DNA of 32,360 nt from Smithella sp. SCADC (GTDB taxonomy: Bacteria > Desulfobacterota > Syntrophia > Syntrophales > Smithellaceae). Within the stretch, counting starts at the first letter, position 1, and the number at the start of each line of letters is the position of its first letter. Under the pieces are notes generated by a model. That model worked only from the letters and a program-made list of their open reading frames with translations. It had not been told where the DNA came from and did no database searches. The position numbers were made by a program, and so were the translations under genes. Positions 10,832 to 17,760 of the stretch are shown one piece after another. The stretch is from NCBI GenBank assembly GCA_000747625.2, contig JQDQ01000202.1, positions 1-32,360 of the forward strand. Direction: 5' to 3'.

Positions 10832-12115
10832 ATGACTGGAACGATTAAAAAAACTGTAACCTTATCTCCAAAGGTAATTTGTCTCTTAAAAAAAGGGGTC
10901 CGGATGACGGCCCCTTTTTCTGTGGAAATCGGTGATGAAGTAAATCCGGAAAGGATTGCCGATTCCTCAATAATTTATGGCGCCGCAAGGATTTACGGTG
11001 AAAACACATTAATTTCACCGGAAGTAAAACTGGGGTTCGAAGGACCGGTTACTTTAATTAATTGTCAACTGGGCAACGCAGTAGAACTCAAGGGCGGATA
11101 TTTTACCAATTCGGTATTTTTAAATAAGTCAACAATGGGCGGCAATGCGCAGGTTCGTTCCGGCTGCCTCTTGGAAGAAGAAGCAGCCGGAAATCATTGT
11201 GTCGGTTTAAAACAAACAATCCTCTTTCCTTTCGTGCAACTGGGAAGTCTGATTAATTTTTGTGATTGCCTGATGGCTGGTGGCACGAGTCGCAGGAATC
11301 ACAGTGAAGTGGGCAGTTCCTACATCCATTTCAATTATACTCCGCGGCAAAACAAAGCGACTCCTTCATTAATCGGCGATGTGCCGCGCGGCGTAATGCT
11401 TAGGGAACCGCCGATCTTCCTGGGAGGTCAGGGTGGCATTGTGGGACCGGTACAAATTGATTATGGAACGGTGATTCCCGCAGGTGTTATTTGCCGGCAG
11501 GATTTTAAAACCGGGGGGATACATTGGACATCGCTTTCTTCTCTGGAAAAGAAGAAAGAATTTGTTGCCGGTGCCTCCGGCGGTGACATTACTAGAAAAG
11601 TTAAGCATAATATAGAGTACGTGGCTAATTTATCGGCTTTGAGGCATTGGTATCACTGCGTGCGCCGCGAGTTTTTTATGAAAGAAACGTATGGCGAAGC
11701 CCTTTATTGCGGAGCGTGCAGGGTTTTGGATGAAGCCCTTGCAGAACGGATCAAGCAACTGCGCCTTTTTGCACAAAGCATAGAAACTTCTATGGAAGTA
11801 GTCACAAAAAAAATGGAAAAAATATATCCAGGCAGCGTGTCCCGTACTCAAAAACAGTTTTTGCAGGATTGGCCGCGAATGGAAGCATATCTTTCCGGTA
11901 ATAATGAAGAAAAAATCGGGCTGAAAAAAAGAGACTCATTTGTAAAAATAATGCAGCGCCTTTCCAATAAAGGCAACTCTTATCTGGAATCAATACATTT
12001 GTTGACACCCGCACAAACCCGGGAAGGTACGGACTGGTTAAGAAGTATTACTAAAAACATTATAACTGAATGCGTAAATAATAACCCTGACGCTTCGCGG
12101 CGGAAAGAAAAATAA
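10832..12115 (+). CDS. Left-handed beta-helix acyltransferase-like protein (GlmU C-terminal-like)
   Basis: A 427-residue protein. Residues about 35-240 form a left-handed beta-helix of hexapeptide repeats, for example NPERIADSSIIYGAARIYG, GFEGPVTLINCQLGNAVELK and GSLINFCDCLMAGG. This resembles the acetyltransferase half of GlmU and related UDP-HexNAc enzymes, but the GlmU pyrophosphorylase half is absent. The C-terminal about 180 residues are helical and unrecognised. Probable role: acyl transfer or regulation in UDP-GlcNAc synthesis. Its TAA overlaps the next ATG (TAATG), tying it to the GlmS-like protein. I kept the first ATG because the pattern LLKKGVRMTAPFSVEIGDEV runs through the later ATG at 10904. 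Catalytic function is not proven. Confidence 0.7.
   Translation: MTGTIKKTVTLSPKVICLLKKGVRMTAPFSVEIGDEVNPERIADSSIIYGAARIYGENTLISPEVKLGFEGPVTLINCQLGNAVELKGGYFTNSVFLNKSTMGGNAQVRSGCLLEEEAAGNHCVGLKQTILFPFVQLGSLINFCDCLMAGGTSRRNHSEVGSSYIHFNYTPRQNKATPSLIGDVPRGVMLREPPIFLGGQGGIVGPVQIDYGTVIPAGVICRQDFKTGGIHWTSLSSLEKKKEFVAGASGGDITRKVKHNIEYVANLSALRHWYHCVRREFFMKETYGEALYCGACRVLDEALAERIKQLRLFAQSIETSMEVVTKKMEKIYPGSVSRTQKQFLQDWPRMEAYLSGNNEEKIGLKKRDSFVKIMQRLSNKGNSYLESIHLLTPAQTREGTDWLRSITKNIITECVNNNPDASRRKEK
10890..10919 (+). terminator. Terminator-like hairpin inside the beta-helix protein gene
   Basis: AAAAAGGGG(T)C (10890-10900) pairs with G(G)CCCCTTTTT (10909-10919): five A-T pairs, four G-C pairs, one G-T and one C-G, with an eight-base loop CGGATGAC. 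It ends in five T residues like an intrinsic terminator, yet lies 58 bases into the reading frame. An in-frame ATG (10904-10906) is in the loop. It could be an attenuator between the Fis-like gene and the amino-sugar genes. The structure is seen; the function is inferred. Confidence 0.4.
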
Positions 12116-15100
12116 TGTTTATTGCGCGAATGCTCAATACCATAAAAAATATGGGCCGGTTTCTTGCGGTCTGTCAAATATTTATAGGAAAAAATCCGGC
12201 AAATGTTTCCGTTCCGGCAATAATTTTTTTCCCGGTTTTGACTTATCAACTTAACTGCGGCTTTGCCGGACTGATGACTTTCCATCCCGATAAAAAACCT
12301 GCGGAATTAACCGAAGATCTGGCGCTGGCAACGTTGTGGAAGAAGATCAAAAGTTTTGGTCTAAAAAATGCTTTGGCCGGAAAGATTACAGCAGAGAAAT
12401 ACTTAGACGGACTCGAAACGCTCAGCTCCATGGAAAAAATCACATTGGAGCTCAAGCAGGAAAGTAAACAGGAATTTCTTTTCTTTCATGCTGAAAGATC
12501 CAAAATACTTCTCGGTTTAGTTGAAAAAATGAAATTATTTCTGGCGGAAGAAGAAAATATCCTGGAAGATAATGCCGCCAGATTTACTTCCACCGATCTG
12601 GAAATTATCAACAGCCGTATTATTCTGTTTAAAGATATCCAATGGATTTTAGAAAAAGATATCCTGGCTAATTTCCCGAAGATTTTTGATCTTTCCGGAG
12701 CAAAAAAGATATCCGAAATCAAACCGGCGGCCTTCAAAAAATACCGGCAAATTAATTTATTGCTCAATGCCGTGGACCGATTGGAAGTTCGGGGCAGAGA
12801 TTCCGCGGGACTGCAAATTGTCTTTACCCTGGAAAAAGAAAAAGACATGGAAAACATTTTGCTTAAACTGAAAGAAAAAGGCTTATACGAAGATTATTTG
12901 ACGAGAGCTGAAGAGAAAGACCTTGTTAATGGCGCCATTCTGATTGCAGCAAATGTAAATGCCGGCACCGCCAAAAAAACGACCGTGACTTTTACCTATA
13001 AAACTTTTTCTATTGTGGGTGAACTGGGACGCAATGCCGGTGATCTCAGGCAGATAATTAAGAAAGACAAAATTATCCCGTGTTTTGCCGCACTGGATAC
13101 GCTTTATGAAACGGCGCTGACCCATACGCGCTGGGCTTCCGTCGGTTCGATTACGGAAGAAAATTGTCATCCCGTCAATAATTATAAACTTGAGCAGAAA
13201 AATCCGCACTTTCCTTTTTACCCCAAATCCGCCGCACACATTAATGTTGTATTAAACGGCGATATCGATAATTATCAGGCTCTGCGCGCAGAGCTTCCGG
13301 CGGAAATGATTTCCCCGGAGCTCACAACGGATACGAAAATTATTCCCCTGCAAATTGAGAAATATTTGAAAGCCGGTCAAAACCTCTCTGAATCGTTTCG
13401 CCTGGCTGTGAATGATTTCGAAGGTTCACACGCAATTGCCATGACCAGTGATCTGGAACCGGGCAAGATGTTTTTAGCGCTCAAAGGCAGCGGCCAGTCA
13501 ATTTACATCGGGATCAGTTCGGATCAATACATGTTTTCTTCGGAACTATACGGGATAGTGGAAGTGATGCCTCATTTCATCAAAATGAATGGTGAAACAG
13601 CCACCAATGATGCAAACAGGGCAGCGGGACAAATATTTGTCTTGGATCAATCCTCATCGGGAGGACGGGAAGGAGCAAGTGGTTGCTATTACGATGGCAC
13701 CAAAATTAGTTTAAAAGATATTGATTTGCAGAAGGCGGAAATTACGACGCGTGATATTGATCGCGGCGATTATCCTCATTTTTTCCTCAAGGAAATTTCC
13801 GAATCCGCCATTTCGGTTAAAAGAACCCTGCGGGGTAAATATCGTCTGGCCGTAAAGAATAATTCTTTGCCGCAGGTCATTTTTAATTTAGGTGAAGATA
13901 TTGTTCCTGCCGCCATTCGTTTAAGACTTCAAAACGGCGCTATCAAAAACATAATAGTTATCGGACATGGAACAGCGGCTGTAGCCGGTGCGGCGGTGGC
14001 TGACGCCCTGGAGCGTTATTTAAAAAACAAGAACATTAATATAATGTGCAAAGTTGCTTCCGAATTAAGCGGGTTTTTCTTAAAGGATGATTTATCCGGC
14101 TCCCTTGTGATTCCCATTACCCAGTCCGGAACAACAACAGATACAAATCGCGCCGTGGCCATGGCGGCAGAGCGCGGCGCGTTCATCATTTCCATCGTCA
14201 ATCGGAGACAATCGGATATCACTTCAAAATCGCACGGAGTATTTTACACCAGCGACGGACGCGATATTGAAATGTCGGTTGCTTCCACCAAAGCCTTTTA
14301 TTCCCAGATTATCGCTGGTCATATTTTGGCCCTATTCTTTGCCCAACTATTAGCCGCCCGCAGAGATGATTATATCATGGCGGAATTGCTTAATTTGGAA
14401 AGCTCGCCGCAACTGATGGAGAGGGTTTTTGCCAAAAGGGATCAAATTGCCACTTCTGTGAAAGAAGCTCCCGCGAAGAAATTCTGGGCGATAGTGGGCA
14501 GCGGGCCAAACAAAGCGGCGGCCGATGAAATTAGAATCAAGCTCAGTGAACTTTGCTATAAAACTATTTCTTCCGATGTAGTGGAAAACAAAAAACATAT
14601 TGATTTGTCAGCCGAACCTTTAATTCTGGTTTGTGCTGCCGGAAATCCCCGGGCAGTCGCGGAAGATATCGCCAAGGATGTGGCCATATTCAAAGCACAC
14701 AAGGCTGCGGTTATTGTTTTTGCCGATGAAGGCGATGATCGCTTCGATAATATTGCCGATGCCGTAATTTCCCTTCCGGTGGCACCCATGCCGCTGCCGG
14801 TGATTCTCAATACTATGGCGGGGCATTTGTGGGGCTATTATGCCGCTTGCGGTATTAATAAAGAAGCTCTTATTTTTAAAGAATTCAGAAACAGCCTGAA
14901 TTTGGCTATGGCCGAACAAACGAAGAAAAATTATTCGCTTTACGAAAGAATTGCCGATGTTCACTTGCGCCAGATAATTAATAAGTTTTATCAATCTTTC
15001 AATCATCATCGCAATAATGGGGCATTCAATCTGCTGGGCGTACGGACAATTTCGGATGTCGTGCTTTTGGCAAAATATGCCGCAGGCAAATTACCGCTGG

Positions 15101-15846
15101 GGGATTTCCGCCATGAATTTAAGACTGACGAAGATTTTGCCTCGCCTCTTGATCTTCTGGATGTAACACTTGACCGGGCAATTGATGAATTGACCAGACC
15201 TATAGACGCAATACGTCATCAGGCTAAAACGGTTACAGTCGGTACAAGCCGCAAAGAAAAGGAACTCAAAGGAATCATTTTCGATCTTCTGGAGGAACTG
15301 AAAATTGCCGCCAAAGATATGACCTACAGAAACGTCATGACCGTAAGCAGAATCCAACCTGCCATTTCCGGCGTGCGAGGATACACCATTTATGATATTA
15401 ATAACCTCGATGCACAGGGCAATCCCGCCGAAGGTTCAACCATTACCATCCGAAAAAAAGGCGGAGTGGCCAAAGATATGAAATCGCGCGCGGAAACTTC
15501 CACAATGCTTATGGGAACGAAAAGGACAATTGTCAGTACCGGTCACGTTTATACCGGCAAGGGCAAGGCGGACGGAGCGGCAATCGTAATTTTGCCTATA
15601 TTAGGAGAAAATGAATCTGTCAGCAATCTCGTTTTACTCCATGTAGACTATAATGAATTTCTGCCCGCAGGCGAAAAGAAGGGCGTCTTGGGTTACCGCT
15701 ACAACGACATCCGCAATCTGGTCAACGAATATAATATTAACTGGGATGACGGTTATTTGGAAAAATTCCCGATCGCTGATTTGTTCAGTGAACCGGTGGA
15801 AACTCTGGCCGGGCGCATTAAACAATTGGTCATTACAGATAATTAA
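12115..15846 (+). CDS. Giant GlmS-like glutamine amidotransferase/double SIS protein
   Basis: At 1243 residues this is about twice the usual GlmS, which makes glucosamine-6-phosphate from fructose-6-phosphate and glutamine. Class II amidotransferase words appear in order: CGFAG (Cys48), RGRDSAG (226-232), THTRWASVG (336-344), NCHP (350-353), LNGDIDNY (380-387) and DTKIIP (406-411). About 170 extra residues sit between Cys48 and RGRDSAG. Two SIS domains follow: SIS1 with IGHGTAAVAG (616-625), TQSGTTTDT (669-677) and SVASTKAF (721-728); SIS2 with AIVGSGPN (792-799) and a possible isomerase His828. Residues about 900-1243 have no recognised domain. Cys48 is not N-terminal, so glutaminase activity would need processing or another start. 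It overlaps the beta-helix gene by one base (TAATG). Confidence 0.8.
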   Translation: MFIARMLNTIKNMGRFLAVCQIFIGKNPANVSVPAIIFFPVLTYQLNCGFAGLMTFHPDKKPAELTEDLALATLWKKIKSFGLKNALAGKITAEKYLDGLETLSSMEKITLELKQESKQEFLFFHAERSKILLGLVEKMKLFLAEEENILEDNAARFTSTDLEIINSRIILFKDIQWILEKDILANFPKIFDLSGAKKISEIKPAAFKKYRQINLLLNAVDRLEVRGRDSAGLQIVFTLEKEKDMENILLKLKEKGLYEDYLTRAEEKDLVNGAILIAANVNAGTAKKTTVTFTYKTFSIVGELGRNAGDLRQIIKKDKIIPCFAALDTLYETALTHTRWASVGSITEENCHPVNNYKLEQKNPHFPFYPKSAAHINVVLNGDIDNYQALRAELPAEMISPELTTDTKIIPLQIEKYLKAGQNLSESFRLAVNDFEGSHAIAMTSDLEPGKMFLALKGSGQSIYIGISSDQYMFSSELYGIVEVMPHFIKMNGETATNDANRAAGQIFVLDQSSSGGREGASGCYYDGTKISLKDIDLQKAEITTRDIDRGDYPHFFLKEISESAISVKRTLRGKYRLAVKNNSLPQVIFNLGEDIVPAAIRLRLQNGAIKNIIVIGHGTAAVAGAAVADALERYLKNKNINIMCKVASELSGFFLKDDLSGSLVIPITQSGTTTDTNRAVAMAAERGAFIISIVNRRQSDITSKSHGVFYTSDGRDIEMSVASTKAFYSQIIAGHILALFFAQLLAARRDDYIMAELLNLESSPQLMERVFAKRDQIATSVKEAPAKKFWAIVGSGPNKAAADEIRIKLSELCYKTISSDVVENKKHIDLSAEPLILVCAAGNPRAVAEDIAKDVAIFKAHKAAVIVFADEGDDRFDNIADAVISLPVAPMPLPVILNTMAGHLWGYYAACGINKEALIFKEFRNSLNLAMAEQTKKNYSLYERIADVHLRQIINKFYQSFNHHRNNGAFNLLGVRTISDVVLLAKYAAGKLPLGDFRHEFKTDEDFASPLDLLDVTLDRAIDELTRPIDAIRHQAKTVTVGTSRKEKELKGIIFDLLEELKIAAKDMTYRNVMTVSRIQPAISGVRGYTIYDINNLDAQGNPAEGSTITIRKKGGVAKDMKSRAETSTMLMGTKRTIVSTGHVYTGKGKADGAAIVILPILGENESVSNLVLLHVDYNEFLPAGEKKGVLGYRYNDIRNLVNEYNINWDDGYLEKFPIADLFSEPVETLAGRIKQLVITDN

Positions 15847-15914: not shown

Positions 15915-17760
<1,846 letters not shown>

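Follow-up and report, generated by a model that had tools for sequence, protein, structure and literature searches.

The stretch of DNA considered here, a window of 32,360 nucleotides (contig JQDQ01000202.1) from Smithella sp. SCADC (assembly GCA_000747625.2; completeness 94.7%, contamination 8.2%), raises the question of how a bacterium supplies its amino sugars when the protein resembling the entry enzyme of the pathway is twice the usual size and carries its candidate nucleophile far from the N-terminus. Two genes are concerned. The first encodes a predicted left-handed β-helix (LbH) protein, and the second a giant relative of glutamine:fructose-6-phosphate amidotransferase (GlmS). They overlap in the sequence TAATG, as had been claimed in an earlier note made from the letters of this DNA, and both open reading frames are confirmed at the positions given there. 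That note saw in them a divergent route or regulator for amino-sugar supply. A role in supply and an unusual architecture are upheld, and the evidence favours the main GlmS of the cell.

A GlmS Scaffold with Added Regions

The giant gene and the parts of its product are arranged as follows:

12115–15846, plus strand: giant GlmS-type gene, 1243 residues; its ATG overlaps the stop codon of the LbH gene
12115–12255, plus strand: N-terminal extension, candidate propeptide (residues 1–47)
12256–12258, plus strand: Cys48 codon (TGC), in the motif NCGFAG, aligned with Cys1 of GlmS
12292–12750, plus strand: insertion 1, residues 60–212 (153 residues), predicted all-helical, no Pfam match
12751–13674, plus strand: remaining glutaminase (class II amidotransferase) domain, residues 213–520, with a smaller insertion near 238–327
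13675–14865, plus strand: double-SIS isomerase domain, residues 521–917
14548–14550, plus strand: Glu812 codon, equivalent to Glu488 of Escherichia coli GlmS by alignment
14596–14598, plus strand: His828 codon, equivalent to His504 by alignment
14866–15201, plus strand: insertion 3, residues 918–1029 (112 residues), mostly helical, no Pfam match over threshold
15202–15243, plus strand: GlmS catalytic C-terminal tail, residues 1030–1043, with Lys1038 (equivalent to Lys603) at 15226–15228
15244–15843, plus strand: extra C-terminal region, residues 1044–1243 (200 residues), mixed α/β in the modelled part, no Pfam match over threshold

The protein is not a chance reading frame, since relatives are encoded in at least 505 stretches in a scan of named genomes, and the best 80, which were kept, show 41–96% identity and mostly match over nearly the full length. 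The closest named relative among the matches listed is that of Smithella sp. UBA2180 (L036), with 96% identity in the best segment.

An AlphaFold2 model of residues 22–1221 (predicted local distance difference test, pLDDT, 83; predicted template modelling score 0.70) superposes on E. coli GlmS (PDB 2j6h) with a Z score of 41.6 and a root mean square deviation of 3.6 Å over 598 of 608 residues, pairing Cys48–1044 of the giant protein with residues 1–608 of the enzyme. By this score the glutaminase and double-SIS fold is present, which bears out the claim that both GlmS parts are kept at twice the normal length. When five ordinary GlmS proteins from other genomes of the phylum (Desulfobacterota) are aligned with the giant protein by MAFFT, Cys1 likewise falls on Cys48, and the ordinary C-terminal end, NLAKSVTVE, on residues 1035–1043 (HQAKTVTVG). 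Cys1, Glu488, His504, and Lys603 are named as the GlmS catalytic residues in a passage of a recent review (PMC9272926). Their counterparts Cys48, E812, H828, and K1038 are invariant in 59/59 aligned giant proteins, and so are the glutaminase residues R339, W340, N381, G382, and D406.

The giant protein thus shares with GlmS/GFAT (EC 2.6.1.16, TIGR01135) the domain order, the scaffold, the four catalytic residues, and the glutaminase and SIS motifs, but differs in its double length, its N-terminal extension, its insertions at 60–212, about 238–327 and 918–1029, the 200-residue region beyond the catalytic tail, and scores that lie under the curated cut-offs. The insertion of roughly 170 residues previously noticed after the CGFAG motif is present, although it measures 153 residues, and about 65 further residues are inserted near 238–327 in the MAFFT alignment. 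What had been described as a 340-residue unassigned C-terminus resolves into the 112-residue insertion, the catalytic tail, and the 200-residue extra region. Four pieces scanned alone against Pfam (1–47, 60–212, 918–1029, and 1044–1243) gave no match over threshold. A structure search named no fold for the extra regions, its query being the whole 1200-residue model and therefore uninformative on them. Carried on an intact GlmS scaffold, the insertions and the C-terminal region may have a role in regulation or assembly; feedback control and assembly are guesses.

Substitution for Ordinary GlmS

Ordinary GlmS (TIGR01135 over cut-off) was found in 0/60 genomes of the order (Syntrophales), and the same search was positive in 14/14 control genomes. 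Giant frames that are 1226 residues long or longer are encoded in 48 of the 60, and fragments occur in five more (G006, G022, G036, G043, and G059), the piece in G036 comprising only 51 residues. In G022 the giant gene is divided between two reading frames (G022:C36:66364-70078).

The pattern was also followed through a phylum set of 247 tool-drawn genomes, each at least 90% complete, in which only the best few candidates per genome were scored. Thirty carry the giant protein only, 202 ordinary GlmS only, one both, and 14 neither (Fisher p 9e-27, a value that overstates independence because the genomes are related). Put differently, 30 of the 31 giant carriers have no ordinary GlmS over the cut-off, and 202 of the 216 other genomes have one. 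The carriers are spread over 16 families, and within a single family (f51) G123, G149, and G173 encode only the giant protein, and another three genomes, G089, G215, and G292, only ordinary GlmS.

Checking the Smithella genome for glmS, glmM, and glmU, as had been suggested, gave no ordinary GlmS, a clear GlmM (581 bits; cut-off 448), and, as the best GlmU match, a separate frame of 253 residues (C182) that covers the uridyltransferase half only (269 bits). No second GlmS turned up there; behind the giant protein the best match is PurF (508 bits; cut-off 350), with two weaker matches left unread. Judged by its structure, its catalytic residues, and its substitution for the ordinary enzyme, the giant protein very probably serves as the main functional GlmS of this Smithella lineage rather than as a side branch.

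The N-Terminal Extension

The candidate nucleophile lies, as described before, behind 47 residues, and a Cys at this position is found in 76/77 aligned giant rows, the remaining row being truncated. For the counts that follow, 68 rows with an extension were used, and nine were excluded (three without an extension, five ended by contig ends, and one truncated). The extension is gapless from residue 23 to 47 in all 68, and it conserves Pro40 (68/68), Gly25 (65/68), and Pro28 (53/68). Pro40 is encoded by all four CCN codons, and second codon positions in the extension are more conserved than third positions, which indicates selection at the level of the protein. The possibility, raised in the earlier note, that the frame is wrong in the first 150 bases is excluded by the gapless stretch, Pro40, and this codon-position pattern, the last of which also rules out an untranslated leader. 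An RNA element beneath the extension, suggested by a low synonymous divergence there, was rejected as well: the only Rfam match lies in another part of the gene and is at chance level (E 0.97), and third codon positions of the extension are free to vary across as many as 73 rows. Among four close relatives, synonymous differences in the extension codons (12118–12255) amount to a proportion (pS) of 0.174, compared with 0.40–0.53 in other regions.

The residue preceding the Cys in the 68 rows is N in 23, C in 22, F in 12, S in five, Y in two, and A, H, P, or R in one each. Since Met, Val, and Leu do not occur there (0/68), no start codon could expose the Cys, and an internal start is ruled out for the extended genes. 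Processing, a different start, and no use of glutamine had been offered as the ways around the extension; the different start falls away, and processing is needed if Cys48 is a class II nucleophile. In three members (L058, L116, and L118) the gene begins directly with ATG-TGC (Met-Cys), like that of ordinary GlmS. L058 and L116 are close kin with a purine-rich, ribosome-site-like upstream stretch, and L118 belongs to a single-contig genome. A tree of 74 rows, made by a quick method with support from the Shimodaira-Hasegawa-like approximate likelihood ratio test (SH-aLRT) only, requires two changes, in two lineages, to account for these starts, and this number is forced by well supported branches. 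With direct starts in two lineages and no usable start codon before the Cys in the 68 extended rows, the conserved extension of about 45 residues is, by sequence comparison, probably a propeptide.

A parallel is offered by PurF/GPRAT (the Bacillus subtilis type and Arabidopsis GPRAT2), in which a class II amidotransferase Cys likewise lies behind an N-terminal stretch. According to a passage of one paper, PurF-type propeptides are removed autocatalytically, and the propeptide of Arabidopsis GPRAT2 is removed in E. coli (PMC7056826). By this analogy, the simplest reading of the giant extension is a propeptide that is probably removed by self-cleavage. Unlike PurF/GPRAT, the giant protein has a double-SIS partner domain and an extension, about 45 residues long, that is conserved and presumably removed. 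The PurF of Smithella itself (L187:491-1918, G000:C177) carries its nucleophile, Cys19, behind 18 residues, a short propeptide-like start.

The LbH Protein and the Missing Half of GlmU

The gene upstream of the giant gene is the following:

10832–12115, plus strand: LbH protein gene, 427 residues; predicted left-handed β-helix aligned with the GlmU acetyltransferase half over about 9–240; helical C-terminus; candidate glucosamine-1-phosphate (GlcN-1-P) N-acetyltransferase

In a profile comparison, residues 9–240 of its product match the acetyltransferase domain of GlmU (PDB 5vmk; E 2.8e-5). The uridyltransferase (pyrophosphorylase) half is absent, as had been seen before, although the protein is more than the β-helix then described, since a helical C-terminus follows the region of about 9–240. 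R109, K127, and N168 are invariant in 25/25 rows and are aligned with Arg333, Lys351, and Asn386 of GlmU, which we take to be substrate-site residues. Compared with the C-terminal acetyltransferase domain of GlmU (PDB 5vmk and 2v0h), the LbH protein has a longer loop after a common Asn-Tyr, a 10-residue insertion, and family motifs of its own, namely an invariant CDC and (N/D)HSEVGSSY(I/V)HFN(Y/F)TP. It stays below every curated cut-off of Pfam and NCBIfam. Its model is good only to about residue 120, and the fold was set aside as proof of an acetyltransferase, the best match having an E of 9e-4 and the core being unreliable.

The distribution of the protein is related to that of GlmU. GlmU over the cut-off was found in 0/60 genomes of the order, and the LbH protein is present in 54 of them. 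In the phylum set it occurs in 55/247 genomes, including 30/31 giant carriers. Full-length GlmU, defined by a profile end at 415 or later, is encoded in 5/55 genomes with the LbH protein, against 116/192 without it (Fisher p 2e-12, uncorrected for relatedness). The protein therefore tracks the loss of the GlmU acetyltransferase half, if imperfectly. Several phylum genomes that lack it have GlmU frames of only about 330–350 residues.

The surroundings of the LbH gene were read in all 55 genomes except G002, G003, G017, and G293. In 44 of the 55 it is adjoined by glmM on the same strand and at less than 400 bases, and all six of the glmM neighbours that were checked lie over the TIGR01455 cut-off. 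The giant gene alone adjoins it in five (G000 and G046, together with G002, G003, and G017 by coordinates). Its neighbour is neither of these in G149, G194, and G255, the view is obscured by contig ends in G122 and G173, and G293 is unread. In the phylum set, glmM is a more frequent neighbour of the β-helix gene than the giant gene, with which it is paired at this locus. At locus L140 giant glmS, the LbH gene, and glmM are consecutive on one strand, and at L131 an LbH-glmM pair is divergent from ordinary glmS and a truncated GlmU that matches residues 1–344 only. Shortened GlmU frames lie directly upstream of ordinary glmS at both L131 (3410-4558, 383 residues) and L134 (2681-3766, 362 residues). 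Second LbH copies in G213 (L178), G252 (L181), and G234 (L182) adjoin neither glmM nor glmS, and G040, an order genome without a giant match or an above-cut-off ordinary GlmS, still has an LbH gene adjoining glmM (L162). This gene context and the partial conservation of the site make the LbH protein the leading candidate for the absent GlcN-1-P acetyltransferase, an assignment that seems rather more probable than not.

A Proposed Route to UDP-N-Acetylglucosamine

Taken as a whole, the likely course of events is that the giant protein acts as a processed, glutamine-using GlmS and that the LbH protein acetylates in the place of GlmU. The 1243-residue protein would be made with its extension of about 45 residues, the removal of which, probably by self-cleavage as in PurF, would leave Cys48 as the N-terminal nucleophile. 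Glutamine would then be hydrolysed in the glutaminase domain and the ammonia passed to the double-SIS domain, where Glu812, His828, and Lys1038 would carry out the isomerisation. The resulting glucosamine-6-phosphate (GlcN-6-P) would go to an ordinary GlmM, its product GlcN-1-P would probably be acetylated by the LbH protein, replacing the missing C-terminal half of GlmU, and the stand-alone GlmU N-terminal half would make UDP-N-acetylglucosamine (UDP-GlcNAc). A bolder reading, less likely than not, sees a complete parallel route to UDP-GlcNAc in a large part of the phylum. It would consist of a zymogen GlmS, with a conserved propeptide that gates entry into the making of the cell wall, then GlmM, free-standing GlcN-1-P acetyltransferases of a new family with catalytic residues other than those of GlmU, and a uridyltransferase that stands alone; the genes for the first three often lie together.

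Opposing Evidence and Alternative Explanations

Each part of this proposal has findings that speak against it. For the LbH protein, the core of the model is unreliable (residues 122–248 lie under pLDDT 50), and five genomes retain full-length GlmU in addition to it (G111, G123, G164, G200, and G215). His363 of GlmU, presumably a catalytic residue, is unmatched, being Phe143 in one alignment and no His in another, both of them gapped there. Moreover, 76/192 genomes without the LbH protein also lack full-length GlmU, so that other acetylation solutions exist in the phylum, and probably another acetyltransferase. The unmatched His, the retained GlmU, and these 76 genomes would suit an LbH protein that partners GlmM or GlmS in a structural or regulatory role while another acetyltransferase fills the gap. 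That explanation is doubtful, although it is the one to be taken most seriously. It has to contend with the adjacency to glmM in 44 genomes, with the three substrate-site positions that are kept (if we have assigned their roles correctly), with L131, where the shortened GlmU beside ordinary glmS has LbH-glmM alongside, and with G147, the only one of the 31 giant carriers without the LbH protein, which has a GlmU over the cut-off.

The extension is conserved more than a spent propeptide requires, and it is poorly modelled (pLDDT about 50–60). Its conserved Gly25, Pro28, and Pro40 could be the recognition signal of a specific host protease that removes it in place of self-cleavage. However, the position preceding the Cys varies greatly, which makes a protease with a strict preference there unlikely, and the PurF-type precedent, including the processing of GPRAT2 in E. 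coli, is autocatalytic. Removal by a host protease is accordingly the unlikely alternative to self-cleavage.

For the giant protein itself, the scores lie well under the curated cut-offs (221.2 bits against 418.05 for TIGR01135 and 247.1 against 381 for the subfamily NF001484; the NCBIfam GlmS match spans residues 332–912), and the MAFFT alignment shows differences from E. coli GlmS at Ser303 and His77, which we assume to be substrate contacts or conserved residues. In seven of the 60 order genomes (G005, G016, G019, G028, G039, G040, and G052) a giant match and an above-cut-off ordinary GlmS are both lacking, perhaps, though not necessarily, owing to gaps in the assemblies. One giant carrier of the order, G026, has the 118-residue end of an ordinary GlmS at a contig edge (L188:3-359, G026:C51; 148 bits over the last 121 profile positions), perhaps a contamination, and in the phylum set G214 carries both proteins.

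Ammonia is plentiful in many anoxic habitats, and the giant protein could be a GlmS that uses ammonia only, in which the extension keeps Cys48 buried and the glutaminase half is a relic or a sensor. The conservation of the extension, gapless at 23–47 over 68 rows, would agree with this, and cleavage is itself something we infer. The invariance of Cys48 and the five further glutaminase residues in 59/59 proteins speaks against it, as do the three Met-Cys starts, which keep only the nucleophile, and this explanation is very improbable. Least credible of all is a giant protein that produces some other amino sugar or controls the flux of sugars while GlcN-6-P comes from a different enzyme, for although its low profile scores, its roughly 600 residues beyond ordinary GlmS, and the seven order genomes with neither enzyme would fit, the near mutual exclusion of giant and ordinary GlmS, the complete GlmS site, and the linkage of the giant gene to glmM and the LbH gene oppose it.

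Neighbouring Genes

A further gene follows on the same strand:

15924–17570, plus strand: pyrG, CTP synthase, downstream of the giant gene

Around the giant gene, 80 loci were surveyed, many of them ended early by contig ends; the LbH gene is found in 40, glmM in 22, and pyrG, which shares the locus here as well, in 49.

Implications

Among the papers listed in searches of the open-licence literature, judged short of their full texts, none deals with a giant GlmS or with a free-standing LbH acetyltransferase from such bacteria, and none describes a long homolog already characterised as an ordinary GlmS, the finding that might have overturned the original idea. GlmS and GlmU are enzymes familiar from textbook accounts of cell-wall supply. 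In this case GlmS is double-sized and probably in need of maturation, and GlmU is split, its acetyltransferase half perhaps replaced by the LbH protein. If the proposal is true, it would close a gap in the pathway of syntrophic and sulfate-reducing bacteria, provide a natural case of a GlmS behind a propeptide, and give a function to a protein family encoded beside glmM.

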